Below, one piece after another: positions 1 through 57,330 of a stretch of 64,000 nt of DNA (position 1 is its first letter; each line of letters starts with the position of its first letter). A model generated the notes under the pieces. That model was given only the letters and a program-made list of their open reading frames with translations, searched no databases and was not told the origin of the DNA. Origin of the DNA: Planctomycetota bacterium (GTDB lineage Bacteria > Planctomycetota > UBA1135 > GCA-002686595); the NCBI GenBank assembly GCA_002686595.1, contig NYXZ01000108.1:1-64000 (forward strand). Direction: 5' to 3'. Made by a program: the position numbers and the translations under genes.

Positions 1-160
1 AACTCCCCCCCTTGGGGGGGCTGGGGGGGGGAACCAACCACCCTCCCCGCCGCAAACACACAAGCCAAAGCAACAAGCCAAGCAACTCCCCCCCTTGGGG
101 GGGCTGGGGGGGGGAACCAACCACCCTCCCCGCCGCAAACACACAGAGCCACAGACAAGC
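1..160. repeat. Two tandem units (period 83 bp) of a dispersed G/C-homopolymer palindromic repeat, core AACTCCCCCCCTTGGGGGGGCTGGGGGGGGGAACCA plus an A/C-rich tail
   Basis: Seen directly: identical cores at 1 and 84 followed by CCACCCTCCCCGCCGCAAACACACA; same core recurs at 45.9-46.2 kb. Left edge of the array is cut by the window. Confidence 0.95.
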
Positions 161-165
161 ACCAG

Positions 166-1296
166 ATGAGTTCCCCTTTCAAGTTCGAGGTCAACCACCA
201 AGCCGCAGCGAACGGCCCCCGAACTGCCACATTCAACACACCCCACGGCCCGGTCAGAACCCCGGCCTTCATGCCCGTGGGAACCTACGGGACACTCAAA
301 GGGCTGACGCCAGACCAGATCCGCGCCACGGGCTCGACCATGATCCTGGCCAATGCCTATCACTTGCACCTGCGGCCGGGCCACGAAACAGTCCGCGAAC
401 TCGGCGGGCTACATCGTTTGATGGCCTGGGATGGGCCGATCCTGACGGATTCCGGCGGCTATCAGGTTTTCAGCCTGGGACACCGCTGCCGCATCGATGA
501 TGACGGCGTGACGGTGAAATCAGTTCTCGACGGTACGCAGGTGCGCCTCGAACCGGCGCGGGTGATGGAGATCGAAGCTGCCCTTGGAGCGGATGTGGCC
601 ATGGCCTTTGATCATTGTCCGGCGGATCCAACGGACCGCGCCCAGGTCACCGCCGCCAGTTGTCGCACCCATCGCTGGCTTGATAGGTGCGTGGCCTGGC
701 ACCGCGCCCACGGTGGCGAGGATCGCGGACAGGCCCTCTTCGGCATCGTCCAGGGGGGCGCCTTCGAGGACCTGCGGCGCGCATCCGTCGAAGCGGTCTG
801 CGCCCATGACCTCGTTGGCTATGCCGTGGGCGGGGTCAGCGTGGGCGAGGATCGTTCCTCCATGGCCGCCGCCCTCGCGGCCTCCGTCCCATACCTGCCA
901 GCGGACCGACCGCGCTACCTGATGGGCGTGGGTACGCCCCGCGATCTCTTCGATGCCGTCGCCCTCGGGGTAGACCTTTTCGATTGTGTCACACCCACGC
1001 GCCACGGCCGCAATCACCAGGCCTTCACGCGCTCCGGCAAACTCAACCTGCGCAACCTGCGCTGGCGCGAATCCACCGCTCCCATCGACGAGGATTGCTC
1101 CTGTTACACCTGCAGCCATTACTCGCGGGGAACCCTGCGCCACCTGTGCAAGGCCCAGGAAATGCTGGCTGGGACGCTGCTCTCAATCCACAACCTGACC
1201 TTCTTCCACGACCTGATGGCCGCCATGGGGCGGGCCATCGAGAACGGCGGCCTGGGTGAGTTGCGCAGCCAATACGCCGCAGCCGTGGAGGGCTGA
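166..1296 (+). CDS. tgt: Queuine/7-aminomethyl-7-deazaguanine tRNA-ribosyltransferase
   Basis: Motifs TPAFMPVGTYGTLKGLTPDQ, LANAYHLHLRPG, ILTDSGGYQVFSL, YAVGGVSVGE, zinc-binding CSCYTCSHYSRGTLRHL. Confidence 0.97.
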   Translation: MSSPFKFEVNHQAAANGPRTATFNTPHGPVRTPAFMPVGTYGTLKGLTPDQIRATGSTMILANAYHLHLRPGHETVRELGGLHRLMAWDGPILTDSGGYQVFSLGHRCRIDDDGVTVKSVLDGTQVRLEPARVMEIEAALGADVAMAFDHCPADPTDRAQVTAASCRTHRWLDRCVAWHRAHGGEDRGQALFGIVQGGAFEDLRRASVEAVCAHDLVGYAVGGVSVGEDRSSMAAALAASVPYLPADRPRYLMGVGTPRDLFDAVALGVDLFDCVTPTRHGRNHQAFTRSGKLNLRNLRWRESTAPIDEDCSCYTCSHYSRGTLRHLCKAQEMLAGTLLSIHNLTFFHDLMAAMGRAIENGGLGELRSQYAAAVEG

Positions 1297-30546: not shown

Positions 30547-32328
30547 TCAGGCTTCCGGGTCGACCTCGAACCGCTTCAGGAAATCGTCCGTTTGTTCCAC
30601 ATCGTCCAAGCGTGTAATCAAGAGTTCGATGGCCTCGATAAAATTCATGCGCAGTAACACACGGCGCAGAGTACTGATCCAGCGATGCCGTTGATTCGTG
30701 AAGAGCTTTTCCTCTTTGCGCGTGCCAGAGCGTTCAATATCGATGGCTGGAAAAATGCGGCGATCCGCCAGCTTGCGGTTGAGCACGATCTCGCTGTTGC
30801 CGGTGCCCTTGAACTCCTCGAAGATCATGGAGTCCATGCGGCTGCCCGTATCCACCAGGCAACTGCCTAGGATCGTCAGGCTCCCAGCAGTTTCTGTGTT
30901 GCGCGCCGCGCCGAATATTTGCCGTGGCCGTTCCATGGCGCGGGAGTCGAGCCCGCCGGACATGGTGCGCCCTGAGTTGCCTGCCATGTTGTTGTAGGCC
31001 CGGGCCAGGCGAGTGATGGAATCCAACAACAGGACCACATCCTCCCCCATCTCCACCAATCGTTGGCAACGGCGCCAGACGGCCTCGGCCAACTGGATGT
31101 GGTTCTTCGCGGTTTGGTCGCTGGTGGAGACAAACACCTGCCCCTTGGTACTGCGCACCCATTCCGTGGCCTCCTCCGGACGCTCGTCCACGAGCAAGAC
31201 CATCAGGTGTACCTCGGGATAGGCCAGTTCGATGCCCTTGGCGAAATCGCGCATGAGAATCGTCTTGCCACTGCGCGGCGGCGCGACGATCAACGTGCGC
31301 TGGCCGCGCCCCACCGGGGCCACTAGATCCAAGACACGCATGGAAACATTGTCAGTGGCATCCCCCACCGCATAGTGGAAGTCCGGGTCAATCGTCACCA
31401 AGCTGCGGAAGCCGCGGACGGCTGCCCATTCCTTTGGCTCCTTGCCATCCACTTCGGTCACATCCAAGAGTTGCCATTTGTGTTTTTGCCCGCGCCCGAT
31501 CGGGCCGCTGACAATGGCCCCCTCCCGTAAATTGTGGCGTTGGATGAGGTTCTTGGACACATAGATGTCCTGCTTGCTCGGCGTGAACTGGGCTTCCTCT
31601 TGGCGCAGCACGCCGATGACACCGTTGTCGAGACAGAACATGCCACTGCCCACGCCCTTGGCCTCGACCTTGCGACCTTGCTGGCCCTGGCCGCGCTGGC
31701 CCCTTTGGCCCTTCTTCCCTTTTTGACCCTGCTGGCCTTTTTGACCTTGTTGACGCTGCTGGCCTTGTTGACCCTTGTTCTTTTGTCTCCGCCCCTGGCC
31801 CTGGCCGCCCTGCTTCTTCTTGCGCTGCCCCCGTTCCTGGCCGCCGGACTTGTTCTGCTTGCCTCCGGAGGAGCCCTGGCCCCGCTTGCCCGAACGGCGC
31901 TGCCTCTGCCCACCCTCCTTGCGGGTTTCGCTTCCTCCGTCACTGCCATCTGCGGCACGATCCGCGTCACGATCAGCGGCACGGGCGGATGAAGCTTTTT
32001 CCTTCTTCCGAGAGCCCTGGGACTTGCCCGCGCCCTTGGAGTTCTTGTCACGCGGCTTGGGCTCCGGTTGCATGGCTCCGAAGGGGGCTTGGTCGCTGGC
32101 GGTGGTTTCTTTTTGGGTCACTGTGCTTCCGCGGCTGGCCCGCGTGGGGTCTCGCCCGGAGAGTACCGCCGGGCGGGTCTCGGGCCTGGATCTGTGGCCG
32201 TCGGACAGACCGACAACCAGTTTCCGTTTCGTCCGACGCTCCCGCCGGGTGGACCGGCGCGGAACAGGATGGGGAGCACCTCGGGGCCTTTCCCCATGAA
32301 TCACGGGGCGGCTCCAGGGCCTGCTCAT
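30547..32328 (-). CDS. rho: Transcription termination factor Rho with long basic/Gln-Gly-Lys-rich N-terminal extension
   Basis: Walker A APPRSGKTILM, LLVDERPEEATEW, LLDSITRLARAYN, SGGLDSRAMERPRQIFGAARN; start uncertain (ATG 32328, or GTG 32121). Confidence 0.96.
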   Translation of the reverse strand: MSRPWSRPVIHGERPRGAPHPVPRRSTRRERRTKRKLVVGLSDGHRSRPETRPAVLSGRDPTRASRGSTVTQKETTASDQAPFGAMQPEPKPRDKNSKGAGKSQGSRKKEKASSARAADRDADRAADGSDGGSETRKEGGQRQRRSGKRGQGSSGGKQNKSGGQERGQRKKKQGGQGQGRRQKNKGQQGQQRQQGQKGQQGQKGKKGQRGQRGQGQQGRKVEAKGVGSGMFCLDNGVIGVLRQEEAQFTPSKQDIYVSKNLIQRHNLREGAIVSGPIGRGQKHKWQLLDVTEVDGKEPKEWAAVRGFRSLVTIDPDFHYAVGDATDNVSMRVLDLVAPVGRGQRTLIVAPPRSGKTILMRDFAKGIELAYPEVHLMVLLVDERPEEATEWVRSTKGQVFVSTSDQTAKNHIQLAEAVWRRCQRLVEMGEDVVLLLDSITRLARAYNNMAGNSGRTMSGGLDSRAMERPRQIFGAARNTETAGSLTILGSCLVDTGSRMDSMIFEEFKGTGNSEIVLNRKLADRRIFPAIDIERSGTRKEEKLFTNQRHRWISTLRRVLLRMNFIEAIELLITRLDDVEQTDDFLKRFEVDPEA

Positions 32329-42605: not shown

Positions 42606-43793
42606 CTAGGAGGGAGGCCCCAGGGCCCTGGATAGGGCCAGGAGCTCCGCCACGGACAACTCCCCAGGCCTGGCGCTCCCGTCCAGGCCGAGGCTCCCCA
42701 GCACCTCCCCGGCCCGTTCCCGATCGCCGAGTTGACGGCCCAGGAGTCCCAAGAGGGCCTTCCTGCGCTGGCCCAGGAGGATCCCGGTCCAGTCCCCAAG
42801 ACAGGTCATCTCCTGCGCTCCGGGCCGCTGCGGGAGCAGTTCCAACTGGAGCACGGCGCTCTCCACCCGGGGCCGGGGCCAGAACAACTCGGGTCCCACG
42901 GTGCGCACCATGCGGGCCCCGTAGAGGGCCTGGACTTGGACCGAGAGCGGCCCCCAGTCGCGCGTCCCGGGCACCGCCACCAGCCGGTCCACCATCTCCC
43001 GCTGGAGCAGCAGGGTCATGGTCAGCGGCGGGTTGGGCAGACGCGCCAGCAGCGCCGTCACTGGCCCCCCCACGCTGTAGGGCAGGTTGCTGACCACGCG
43101 CCAGCTGCCCTCGTCCGGCAGGGCCTCCAGCACTTCCTGGGCCAGGTGATGTTTGCCATCGAGTACATCGCAGTGGATCCACTTCACTGACGGAGCTTTC
43201 CCAGTCGCGGCGGCCAACCGTTCCCGGGCCACCTCCAGCAGGCGTCCGTCGATCTCCACCGCGCTCACCCGCGCCCCGGCGGCCACCAGGGGCACGGTCA
43301 AGGAGGCACAGCCGGAGCCGATCTCCAAGACGAAGTCCCCGGCCTCAACTCCGCCATCCCGCACAATGGCCCGGGCCAGATTGGCGTCCACCATCATGTT
43401 CTGGCCCAGGCGCCGGGAGGGCCGGTAGTCCCGGGCGGCCAACTCCGCGCGCACCGCCTGCCAAGTGCCGGCTTCCCCGTTGCCTTGCTCTTCACTGCCT
43501 TGCTCCCCGCGGCCTTGCTCCCCGCGGCCAGGTTTCCCGGCGCCAGATTCTCCAGTGCCAGATTCTCCGGCGCTGCTCTCCTTCGCGTCGTTTTCCATCG
43601 TGCAGTTTCCCTCTGCGCCGATTTCTCCAGCGCAGTTTCCCGCGGCGTGGCTCTCTTCCGTGCCGCTTCCCTCCGCGCAGTTTCCCTCTGTGCCGATTCC
43701 TCCAGCGCTGTTTCCCGCGGCGTTGCTCTCTTCCGTGCCGTTTCCCTCCGTGCCGTTTTCCCCCGTGCCGTTTCCTTCCGGCGGCGAGTTCAT
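42606..43793 (-). CDS. rsmA: 16S rRNA (adenine1518/1519-N6,N6)-dimethyltransferase with repeat-rich N-terminal extension
   Basis: YRPSRRLGQNMMVDANLARAIV, VLEIGSGCASLTVPLVAAGARVSAVEID, VVSNLPYSVGGPV; N-terminal ~110 aa are period-5 repeats. Confidence 0.93.
   Translation of the reverse strand: MNSPPEGNGTGENGTEGNGTEESNAAGNSAGGIGTEGNCAEGSGTEESHAAGNCAGEIGAEGNCTMENDAKESSAGESGTGESGAGKPGRGEQGRGEQGSEEQGNGEAGTWQAVRAELAARDYRPSRRLGQNMMVDANLARAIVRDGGVEAGDFVLEIGSGCASLTVPLVAAGARVSAVEIDGRLLEVARERLAAATGKAPSVKWIHCDVLDGKHHLAQEVLEALPDEGSWRVVSNLPYSVGGPVTALLARLPNPPLTMTLLLQREMVDRLVAVPGTRDWGPLSVQVQALYGARMVRTVGPELFWPRPRVESAVLQLELLPQRPGAQEMTCLGDWTGILLGQRRKALLGLLGRQLGDRERAGEVLGSLGLDGSARPGELSVAELLALSRALGPPS
43602..43751. 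repeat. 75-bp imperfect direct repeat x2 built of 15-bp (pentapeptide) subunits, 5' part of rsmA
   Basis: 43602-43676 vs 43677-43751 aligned by eye: about six mismatches. Confidence 0.9.
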
Positions 43794-44809
43794 CTGCGAG
43801 CTCCCTCCAGCAACGCCCTCAGCCCCGGCGCCGCCCCTTCTTCCGCCGCCAGCCGTTCCAAGAGTGGCAGTGCGGCGCCACCCCAACTCTGGCCCACTGA
43901 GCGTAGTCGGCCCAGGAGGGCGGCGTCCCGGCTCCAACCCGAAGCCTGTGAGCGCAGGTACTCCTCGGCCCCCGCCACACAGCGAAAGCCCAGATCCGCC
44001 GCCCGGTGCCGCCGGTCGAAGCCCTGTTCGTTGTAGGCCAGCCCGCCCTCCGAAGTGGGCCCGGACAGGGGACGGCCCCGCGTGCGGTACGAGCCCCCCA
44101 GGGCTCCGTCCCGGTGCCCGCGGGCGGCCAGCGATTCCGTGACGCGGCCCCTGGTCCATTCCGCCGCGTTCCCCAGGAGATCGTGAACTCCCTCTGGACT
44201 GCGCCCGCGCTCGAACGTGCCACAGGCCAGAAGGCGCCCCAGGCCCAGTTCCAGGGTGTTCGCCACGGCCCGCGCCCGACCCGCTCCCCAGGGCCAGGGC
44301 CGCCCCCGCTGGCCCCCGGCGATGCGCAGCCACTCGCAGGCCGTGGGCAGGCGCAGGCCCCGGGCCACGGCGTAATCCTCGGCCTCCTCCAGCGTCATCC
44401 AGGTGGCCGGCCAGGTATCGCCGTCGACGCCCCAGGCCTCGGCTTCCGCCAGGGGAAAGGTCTCGGCGCTGCCCTCTGCCAGCCAGCGCCGCCACTGTCC
44501 GCGGGAGACTTCAAAACGCTCCACGAGCAAGTCCGCCACCGCTGGACAGGTCGCGCCCGGGCCCAGCTCCAGAGAACAACCCGGGACAAAGACCATGCCT
44601 TCGACGGCCAGGGGCTCCCCGTATGCCGCGCGCCCCAGCGCAGCGCTAGCCTTGGCGGAACTGGCAGTGCTGGAACTCGCCGCGGCGGAACTAGCCCGCG
44701 TTGCAAGAGACGAGCCCGCCCCCCCTTCATCGCAACCCTGCAATCCAAGGCTGACACAGAGGACCAGACAGGCGCCCAGGAGAACTCGCGGCGCCCGGCG
44801 AATCTTCAA
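43790..44809 (-). CDS. Formylglycine-generating-enzyme/sulfatase-modifying-factor-like lipoprotein
   Basis: Lipobox SLGLQGC; GMVFVPGCSLELG, LPTACEWLRIAGG..RPWPWG, GVHDLLGNAAEWTRGR, DLGFRCV. Confidence 0.85.
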   Translation of the reverse strand: MKIRRAPRVLLGACLVLCVSLGLQGCDEGGAGSSLATRASSAAASSSTASSAKASAALGRAAYGEPLAVEGMVFVPGCSLELGPGATCPAVADLLVERFEVSRGQWRRWLAEGSAETFPLAEAEAWGVDGDTWPATWMTLEEAEDYAVARGLRLPTACEWLRIAGGQRGRPWPWGAGRARAVANTLELGLGRLLACGTFERGRSPEGVHDLLGNAAEWTRGRVTESLAARGHRDGALGGSYRTRGRPLSGPTSEGGLAYNEQGFDRRHRAADLGFRCVAGAEEYLRSQASGWSRDAALLGRLRSVGQSWGGAALPLLERLAAEEGAAPGLRALLEGARR

Positions 44810-44878: not shown

Positions 44879-45649
44879 CTACTCGCCGCCGATTTGGGCG
44901 TCCTGGACGAAGATCTCCACACGACGGTTCAGGCGCTTGTTGTCGGCGCTGTCATTGGCCACAACCGGTTCATGGGGGCCGAAGCCAGCCACCACCATGT
45001 CCGCCGCTGGAATCTGCTTCGAGGCCACCAACAACGAGGCGACCCCCACCGCCCGCGCCGCCGAGAGCTCCAAGTTGCCACCGGGAAAACGCTCCAGGGT
45101 CTTGGGTCGAACGATGGGATCACTATCCGTGTGTCCGCGTACCCAAACACGGCCGTGGGGCAGGGCTGCAATCTCACTAGCCACTTGCGCCAGGGCCTTT
45201 TGCCCCTCCGCGCCGACCTCCGCCGAACCGGAGGCAAAGAGCACCTTGTCCTGCACCATGTAGACATAGCCTCCCTCCACATCAAAGCGCTCCACATCTC
45301 CCGGCGGCCGGCCGAGGGTGTTCAGCATTTCCTGCAGTTCACCCATGCGGTGTTCGATGCGCGTGTCGAAGCCCGCCTCCAACACCTCCACTTGGCTCAG
45401 GGCCAGCTCGCCCTTGAGTTGTTCGGAGCGCGCCTCCAGCTGGGCCACATATTGGCTGAGGTCGTGGACCTGGGTTTGGTAGCGTTTGGCGGACTCGAGA
45501 GTCTCGTCGTACTTGCCCTGGGAAACGCAGGAAGCCAAAAGGGCCAGGCCCAGCAAGGCCGGGGCCAGGCTAGGTGTCAGTTTGGCGGTTGCGGCGTCTT
45601 GGCCGTGGTGTCGAATTGTGTTCATCGCGTTGTTGATTGCTCGTGCCAT
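44879..45649 (-). CDS. OmpA-family peptidoglycan-binding lipoprotein
   Basis: Lipobox LALLASC; OmpA core VRGHTDSDPIV...ELSAARAVGVASLLVASKQIPAADMVVAGFGPHEPVVANDSADNKRLNRRVEIFV; start 45625 or 45649. Confidence 0.9.
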   Translation of the reverse strand: MARAINNAMNTIRHHGQDAATAKLTPSLAPALLGLALLASCVSQGKYDETLESAKRYQTQVHDLSQYVAQLEARSEQLKGELALSQVEVLEAGFDTRIEHRMGELQEMLNTLGRPPGDVERFDVEGGYVYMVQDKVLFASGSAEVGAEGQKALAQVASEIAALPHGRVWVRGHTDSDPIVRPKTLERFPGGNLELSAARAVGVASLLVASKQIPAADMVVAGFGPHEPVVANDSADNKRLNRRVEIFVQDAQIGGE

Positions 45650-45767
45650 GGGTGGAACGCGCCCCACCGCTCTGGTGAGCATCCGCGTCCCCACGGCCGA
45701 GTCTAGCCCTCCGACGAGCCCGAATCCAAAGCGTTCCCCGGGAGATACCGTCCAAAAAACAACACCG

Positions 45768-46260
45768 GAAAACTCCCCCCCCCTTGGGGGGCCGGGGAGA
45801 GAACCACACACCCCCTTGCCACCGCGCACACCAAAGCAAAAAGCGCATACCCAAACCCAGCGCACACGCAAGCCCAGCTGTCCCACTCCCCAAAACCAGA
45901 AAACTCCCCCCCTTGGGGGGGCTGGGGGGGGGGACCACACAACCCCTTGCCACCGCACATACCCAAGCCCAAGCACATACCCAAGCCCCGCTGTTCCACT
46001 CCCCAAAACCAGAAAACTCCCCCCTTTGGGGGGGCTGGGGGGGGGAACCACACAACCCCTTGCCACCGCGCACACCCAAGCCCAGCGCATACCCAAGCCC
46101 AGCTGTCCCACTCCCCCAAACCGGAAAACTCCCCCCCTTGGGGGGGCTGGGGGGGGGAACCACACAACCCCTTGCCACCGCGCACACCCAAGCCCAGCGC
46201 ATACCCAAGCCCAAGCACATACCCAAGCCCCACTCCCCCACTCCCCCAAACCGGAAAACC
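45768..46260. repeat. Four tandem units (131, 113, 112, 130 bp) of the C7-TT-G7-CT-G9 palindromic repeat family
   Basis: GAAAACTCCCC starts at 45768, 45899, 46012, 46124; each has a C-run/TT/G-run palindrome, second G-run, then ACCACACA(A)CCCCTTGCCACCGC and CCCAAGCCC-type tail; first unit core degenerate. Confidence 0.96.
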
Positions 46261-46348
46261 GGAAAACCCGAGAGATCACCGGCCGCGCTGGATTCAGCAA
46301 AGCGCCGCCGGACCGGGGGCCGGCGGCGCAGCGAGTGTGCCCTAGCTC

Positions 46349-46891
46349 CTAGAACTTGGCGCCGAAGATCCCAGCCACGCTCTCGGCCACGCTATTCAGC
46401 TGACCGCGAGAGAGGGCCAGGGCGATCGGCAGACCGAGGACCAGGACCAGGGTGGTGGCAATGGCCGCCAGGCGCACGCCCATGCCCTCGCTCTCTTCCG
46501 CCGGCGCGGCGACGACGGCAGCGGCGGAGCTACGGCGCACGGGGGCGGCTTCGGCGATGTCCTCTTCCTCGGCGAGGTCGATTTCACCCACATCCTCCAC
46601 ATCCTCGATGAGCGTATCCACATCGGTGATTTCCTGGGTGGCCATGCCGGCCTCGTCGTCCAAGTCCACGGCATCCTCGAAGACGACCTCTTCGCCGGCA
46701 TCGGCCACCGAGACCACTTCGCCGGATAGATCGCTGCGCAGGCTGTCCACATCGCTGCGGCGTAGTTTCATGGTATCGCCTTCACGGAAGGCGCGAATTT
46801 CGCCCTCCGAGACGAGGCGTTTCAGCTCCTCGTCCTTGAGGCGCAGTTTGTCGAGGGCTTCCTCGAAGCTGAAGAATTCGTTTTCTGCCAC
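46349..46891 (-). CDS. HTH (MerR/excisionase-like) protein with acidic linker and C-terminal TM helix
   Basis: FSFEEALDKLRLKDEELKRLVSEGEIRAFREGDTMKLRRSDVDSLR; TM MGVRLAAIATTLVLVLGLPIALAL. Confidence 0.75.
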   Translation of the reverse strand: MAENEFFSFEEALDKLRLKDEELKRLVSEGEIRAFREGDTMKLRRSDVDSLRSDLSGEVVSVADAGEEVVFEDAVDLDDEAGMATQEITDVDTLIEDVEDVGEIDLAEEEDIAEAAPVRRSSAAAVVAAPAEESEGMGVRLAAIATTLVLVLGLPIALALSRGQLNSVAESVAGIFGAKF

Positions 46892-57117: not shown

Positions 57118-57270
57118 GGCAGGACCCGGGGGAGGGGCGTCCTCGCCCTACCGCCTAGGCGGGGGAAGTTGCCCGGGAAAAGCCAGCCTACGCGTCCCGG
57201 AGCGTCCGATCCAGGCCGCCGCCCAGAGCGCTTGACAGATTGCCGCCAGCGGCACTGCCGGCGCGCCCAG

Positions 57271-57330
57271 CGCCGGCGCCCACCATCGCCACCAGCGGCG
57301 GCGCCCATCATCGCCCCCACCGGCGGCGCC
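57271..57330. repeat. 25-bp tandem repeat x2.4 in the gap between the second ATPase and the DUF1573 gene
   Basis: CGCCGGCGCCCACCATCGCCACCAG / CGGCGGCGCCCATCATCGCCCCCAC / CGGCGGCGCC. Confidence 0.85.

Follow-up and report, generated by a model that had tools for sequence, protein, structure and literature searches.

The window analyzed here is a stretch of 64,000 nucleotides whose position 1 is base 1 of a contig (C52) in a Planctomycetota MAG of 150 contigs that is 86% complete. Close to this contig edge lies tgt, and the DNA upstream of its ATG is occupied by a tandem array. In particular, two copies of a sequence of the form AACT-C7-TT-G7-CT-G9-AACCAACCACCC... constitute an exact direct repeat over 62 nt with a spacing of 83, and their cores (C7-TT-G7-CT-G9) are found at 5-31 and 88-114. 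Since the contig begins at position 1, the assembly truncates the array on this side, and any further units upstream would lie outside the contig. The features at this end of the window are listed below.

1 to 83, plus strand: repeat unit 1, its left side cut by the contig end; C7 (5-11), TT, G7 (14-20), CT and G9 (23-31), followed by a C/A-rich, nearly T-free spacer
84 to 145, plus strand: repeat unit 2, 62 nt the same as in unit 1; core C7 (88-94), TT, G7 (97-103), CT and G9 (106-114)
146 to 165, plus strand: leftover T-free tail reaching the tgt ATG, read directly from the sequence
166 to 1296, plus strand: tgt, encoding a tRNA guanosine(34) transglycosylase (TIGR00430, E=2e-134, 448 bits), with its ATG at 166

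No Shine-Dalgarno-like AGGAGG was seen in the tail (146-165). Stop codons are almost absent from the nearly T-free strand, and the reading frame of tgt is accordingly open back through the repeat (1-165) to the contig end. (Note that the same genome has another tgt-like gene outside the window, at G000:C126:4038-5132, with 47% identity to the TGT of the window.)

When up to two mismatches were allowed, the core motif had 12 matches in the 64-kb window compared to 0.4 expected from dinucleotide shuffles. Thus, the C7-TT-G7-CT-G9 repeat and the 83-bp spacing described in an earlier, sequence-only reading of this DNA are both present, and far above chance. Other parts of that description needed to be amended. 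The two 83-bp units that were said to abut the ATG do have a spacing of 83, but unit 2 matches unit 1 over 62 nt and is followed by 20 nt of divergent sequence up to the ATG; the core itself, which had been placed directly against the start codon, has its last G tract ending 51 nt short of it. Nor does the core contain a perfect 16-bp palindrome, since the reverse complement of C7TTG7 is C7AAG7; what is present is a 7+7 inverted repeat with an unpaired 2-nt TT at its center.

The same reading had proposed a genome-wide search for copies, and this search revealed 25 copies in 12 arrays on 10 contigs of the MAG, in many contexts. The exact sequence CCCCCCTTGGGGGG had 23 matches in this genome (G000) compared to 0 for a reversed-pattern control. 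Copies lie mostly head-to-tail, and the spacers between them are locus-specific, many being rich in CAAGCC-like units. Tandem tracts of CAAGCC occur mostly at element loci (control 0); one such tract, at G000:C74:40576-40610, has no hairpin core nearby. Over all copies the consensus is AACT-C6-9-T2-3-G6-9-CT-G8-10-A, with 7/7/9 as one common form, so that the identity of tract lengths for which selection or very recent copying had been suggested holds for both units at tgt but not across the genome. Since tract lengths vary across copies, the 7/7/9 identity at tgt results from a recent duplication of the block in its entirety, which bears out the suggestion of very recent copying. The second array in the window (45775-46157) has four units, and its surroundings are as follows.

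44879 to 45622, minus strand: OmpA-family gene (ompA) flanking array 2
45760 to 46270, plus strand: C/A-skewed zone of array 2 with a tandem unit of ~112 bp, flanked by the HTH gene and the OmpA-family gene
45775 to 45800, plus strand: copy 1 of array 2, diverged, C9-TT-G6-CC-GGGG...
45906 to 45933, plus strand: copy 2 of array 2, C7-TT-G7-CT-G10
46019 to 46045, plus strand: copy 3 of array 2, C6-TTT-G7-CT-G9
46131 to 46157, plus strand: copy 4 of array 2, C7-TT-G7-CT-G9
46349 to 46891, minus strand: HTH gene flanking array 2

Repeats of other kinds are also found in the window: degenerate 15-bp tandem repeats with a higher period of 75 bp (43474-43780) inside a minus-strand ORF (42606-44495), and short tandem repeats with periods of 27 bp (31704-31779) and 25 bp (57267-57330).

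Six of the 12 arrays are no more than 600 bp away from a contig end (p=1.6e-5), and position 1 of the window is itself a contig edge, as might be the case if the arrays were assembly artefacts resulting from the collapse of homopolymers or repeats at the contig ends of a short-read MAG. However, a real repeat would itself cause a coincidence with contig ends. Moreover, several arrays have unique flanks on both sides (C14, C28, C31, C52 at 45.8 kb, and C111), and a genome that was assembled independently has an orthologous copy. We therefore consider an artefact exceedingly improbable and treat the element as a genuine repeat whose tract lengths and unit numbers are uncertain in their exact values at the contig edge.

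Copies of the element are located upstream of, and in the same sense as, tgt, a class-III aminotransferase gene, a gene for an M28-type peptidase (so assigned by us from the translated sequence), a MarR-like gene, and an ORF on C43. Others lie antisense in the gap between two genes of like direction (selA/selD and HTH/ompA) or convergent at gene ends (ppx and the gene for a HEAT-repeat protein), and yet others lie in frame inside genes, namely a fused iorA and the gene for a YfhO-like membrane protein (two copies 99 bp apart). The unrelated genes that carry or adjoin the element also include prkA. No single pathway unites these genes, and the orientation of the element relative to them varies. 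In at least two proteins the core is translated in frame as linkers of the form S/P-P-P-L-G-G-A/L-G-G-G. We entertained the idea of a selected peptide and rejected it: the core is read as PPLGGAGGG, as PPLGGLGGG, and, upstream of tgt, as PPWGGWGG, and these three different readings indicate that no single reading frame is fixed.

The sequence-only reading had cast the element as a switch between a hairpin and a G-quadruplex (G4), or as a roadblock, acting in cis on the transcription or translation of tgt. That the last core is so close to the ATG is consistent with such a role, as is the folding of the core alone, for which RNAfold predicts a G4 (-31.8 kcal/mol) to be better than the hairpin (-23.6). 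When the whole 83-nt unit is folded, however, two hairpins are the predicted minimum (-33.3) whether or not a G4 is allowed, with the G9 tract pairing with the 3' CCCTCCCC. The predicted preference is thus for a G4 in the isolated core and for hairpins in the complete unit, and a two-state element would be physically possible, if unproven. The G-rich repeats of Xanthomonas and Nostoc too favor the non-coding strand at positions ≤50 bp upstream of ORFs, but the authors of that study likewise could not identify a regulatory role (PMC4692102). Neither a sigma-70-like promoter nor a terminator was found in the element (positions 1-400 were checked); an intrinsic terminator, with a GC hairpin and then a T run, was rejected because the sequence past the hairpin is T-free. 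A known structured RNA was also rejected, as a search of 11 loci against Rfam 15 gave 0 matches above the gathering score. Also arguing against a switch at tgt are the occurrence of the element at unrelated genes, in both orientations and within coding sequence, and its absence upstream of tgt in all 200 relatives searched. With no conservation and no consistent position, a regulatory switch is hard to credit and is without support; tgt is an incidental neighbor of the element.

Eight other genomes among the 200 relatives match CCCCCCTTGGGGGG, and inspection of the loci leaves one true element, in a genome of a different genus (G059; sequence identical to PBIX01000108.1, Planctomycetota bacterium isolate SP2985). 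This copy is in frame at the same iorA linker as the copy in G000. The linker is empty in six relatives (G001, G044, G094, G100, G102, and G103), empty sites being called from a short gap between the two aligned halves of IorA, with four of the six also aligned residue by residue. Thus, the shared copy is either older than the split of the two genera or the result of the same spot having been struck twice. Following insertion at iorA, the element presumably multiplied in the genome studied here. (Note that the in-frame copies of the YfhO-like gene were read in G000, and that the evidence from empty sites concerns iorA alone.) The IorA-like protein (L113:4570-8235, L056:346-3012) is fused to dihydropyrimidine-dehydrogenase-like Fe-S and pyridine-nucleotide oxidoreductase domains, and its linker in G000 also holds tandem repeats (SPDAQAEPRAAI) and an AQ repeat.

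At most loci the element is surrounded by a halo of strand-biased composition. In the nearest 100 bp on either side, the CG skew of the C-strand is approximately +0.4 to +0.8 and the AT skew is of similar size, compared to background means of 0.03 (CG; sd 0.14) and 0.02 (AT; sd 0.22). The halo decays over 100-400 bp from the element, and there is no other 100-bp interval with such skew elsewhere in the 64 kb. Because the halo reaches into conserved coding sequence, we tested synonymous sites. In sense genes, the 4-fold sites within 200 nt have CG skews of +0.60 to +0.66 and AT skews of +0.73 to +0.82, whereas the 4-fold sites of 75 control genes have skews of +0.18 and -0.14, respectively. At the synonymous sites of sense genes, A/(A+G) is 0.61 (118/192) within 250 bp and 0.25 (234/940) beyond 600 bp (p=9e-22), and C/(C+T) is 0.92 near the element and 0.82 far from it (p=1e-6). 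In the control genes A/(A+G) is 0.25 at gene starts and 0.26 at gene ends, which rules out that the halo stems from a codon bias at gene starts. In antisense genes the effect is weaker (A/(A+G) of 0.37 versus 0.23, p=0.003) and strongest at ppx and the HEAT-repeat gene; there is no effect on C/(C+T) in these genes, and at ompA the synonymous halo is absent. Near values exceed far values in 14 of 15 flanking genes; as sites within one gene are not independent, the p-value of this sign test (p=0.001) is the one to be taken as conservative. The orthologues of iorA with an empty site lack the skew. At tgt, the halo in the coding sequence falls within the spread of orthologues, the sole outlier being the upstream AT skew (+0.60 compared to -0.01, sd 0.12).

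One way in which the halo might arise is through selection, if flanks poor in G and T were favored because they leave the mRNA near the hairpin free of structure or of stop codons. It is indeed in genes whose transcription runs in the sense of the C-strand that the halo is most pronounced, and the near-absence of stop codons would favor retention of the element inside ORFs. However, the antisense ppx (9/9) and HEAT-repeat (10/19) genes carry the same C-strand bias, the bias extends both upstream and downstream of the element, and it is present at synonymous sites too, reversing the genome's preference for G-ending codons. Selection is thus, in our judgment, an unlikely source of the halo. The changes run from G to A and from T to C on the C-strand, that is, from C to T and from A to G on the G-rich strand, a pattern that resembles what deamination of an exposed G-rich strand would be expected to leave.

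Dispersed cores of similar design were found in other phyla. In Microcoleus/Oscillatoriales, counts with an order-controlled pattern were 332 versus 4, 105 versus 2, and 52 versus 0, these counts being inflated by overlapping registers. Among Bacteroidota, one genome had 35 versus 0, and 11 of 60 genomes among its relatives match, some of them with plain C/G runs. (Note that this cross-phylum scan was selected on the TT/CT core and that its control covers tract order only.) The cores vary in their loops (TT, TTT, TTCG, and TTGA) and in the dinucleotide between the G tracts (CT, CA, and TA), and those of Microcoleus lie within CTTCTTC-like heptamers. Their likeness to the planctomycete core may reflect either homology or convergence, which such low-complexity sequence does not tell apart. 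A C/A halo in these other phyla was rejected, as the flanks are T-rich on the C-strand in Microcoleus and unskewed in Bacteroidota; so far the C/A halo is particular to this planctomycete and the iorA copy of G059. For the cyanobacterial copies, a directional terminator role was rejected because the orientations of the flanking genes are mixed. In the Bacteroidota genome G216 (L242), opposed C/G hairpins ~120 bp apart occur at many sites (e.g., G216:C46:32-57(+) and 154-179(-)) and look like the ends of a MITE or REPIN-like unit.

In place of a gene-specific switch, we favor a genome-wide repeat. The element is probably a lineage-specific, non-autonomous dispersed hairpin repeat that has been amplified locally in tandem and whose flanks have been mutated by way of an exposed G-rich strand, a reading that draws on the copy number, contexts, empty sites, and halo observed here. 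Its core of ~30 nt (AACT-C6-9-TT-G6-9-CT-G8-10-A) would comprise a short C/G hairpin and then a second G tract, set in C/A-rich tandem spacer repeats made of CAAGCC-like units. Such an element may have spread within one planctomycete genome to ~12 sites and then undergone local tandem amplification. Insertion into genes is tolerated because the almost T-free strand and its almost A-free complement contain hardly any stop codons in any frame. A hairpin, G4, or R-loop at the element could keep the G-rich strand often single-stranded, the exposed strand could gather C to T and A to G changes, and these would yield the excess of C/A over G/T in up to ~250 bp of flanking DNA, coding sequence included. 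We infer that the element is mobile, that an enzyme moves it, and that deamination underlies the halo. Neither a Y1_Tnp transposase (the kind that mobilizes REPs) nor a reverse transcriptase (RVT_1 domain) was found in this 86%-complete genome, and therefore we could name no mover; with no RVT_1 domain found there, we do not favor spread driven by a retroelement. No target-site duplication could be defined for the element, and spread could have occurred by recombination or slippage between C/A-rich tracts and not by transposition.

A broader and distinctly more tentative proposal is that the hairpin acts as a strand-specific mutator (through an R-loop, G4, or slipped hairpin), generating C to T and A to G changes over ~250 bp and so making stop-free flanks that allow expansion into coding sequence, and that Planctomycetota, Cyanobacteria, and Bacteroidota came to carry dispersed repeats of one core design (C-run, TT, G-run, C[T/A], G-run), through either separate origin or spread. 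With its oriented copies at many kinds of site, and with empty sites for comparison, the element offers a clean natural experiment on a general question, namely whether repeats of the hairpin/G4 type imprint a directional bias of mutation on the bacterial genes beside them. If they do, such elements would shape nearby protein linkers and codon usage, and this may explain the presence of similar C/G hairpins as dispersed repeats in unrelated phyla.

The element works like the SDRs of cyanobacteria and the Rickettsia palindromic elements (RPEs), to which it is likened by its features and not by its sequence, membership in either not being established. SDRs are reportedly very small dispersed repeats of 21-27 nt, some of which are said to share a hairpin fold, often set in tandem heptamer repeats, and to be self-nested; they have been proposed to be mobile, and no enzyme is known to move them. 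Like SDRs, the element is small, hairpin-forming, and dispersed, and it lies among short tandem repeats, here the CAAGCC tracts of G000, as the cores of Microcoleus lie among heptamers. Compared by description, it differs in belonging to another phylum, in being slightly longer, in its hairpin, which is made of C and G homopolymers and accompanied by a second G tract, and in its CAAGCC-like spacers. RPEs, reportedly a family of palindromic elements in Rickettsia, resemble it in that a palindromic repeat occupies intergenic sites and also lies in frame within protein genes that are unrelated to one another, as at iorA, where the element is in frame in G000 and G059 and absent from six orthologues. 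RPEs are about 100-150 bp and specific to Rickettsia, whereas the element has a core of ~30 nt, lies in tandem arrays, and carries a composition halo; no Rickettsia was among the matches when a contig database was scanned with the core pattern.

Other small hairpins to be considered are the REPs tagged with GTAG or CGTC and associated with RAYT transposases, which are hairpins of 20-40 nt in many copies, sometimes inside genes (PMC3733652). The element, also a multi-copy small hairpin sometimes found inside genes, could be a REP/REPIN-type element moved by a RAYT (Y1 tyrosine) transposase, as its tens of copies, with tandem and inverted neighbors, and the occurrence of REPs in Planctomycetes (PMC3733652) would allow. 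However, there is no GTAG or CGTC tag at the feet of the hairpin, which are AACT (5') and CCAG (other strand), and no match to Y1_Tnp (PF01797) in the 86%-complete G000, compared to matches in six of 14 control genomes. The arrays also differ in being mostly head-to-tail and tandem. With neither the tag nor the Y1 transposase found, we reject REP/REPIN membership as very unlikely.

The dispersed repeat described here also bears comparison with the GGGNATC repeats of Xanthomonas and Nostoc, G-rich, G4-forming heptamer SSRs that are under-represented in coding regions (PMC4692102). In both cases G-rich tandem repeats are plentiful next to ORFs, and upstream of a gene it is often the non-coding strand that is G-rich. 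The element differs in having a hairpin core of defined form, copies that lie in frame within coding sequence, and a halo with strand bias. Finally, McDonald et al. 2011 (PLoS Biol, PMC3114760) describe substitutions that are in excess near short repeats, in eukaryotes as well as bacteria; these are clusters of substitutions, whereas the bias around the element is compositional, strand-specific, and oriented by the element. The element is thus best placed among small dispersed palindromic repeats, and its strand-biased halo is the part worth following.
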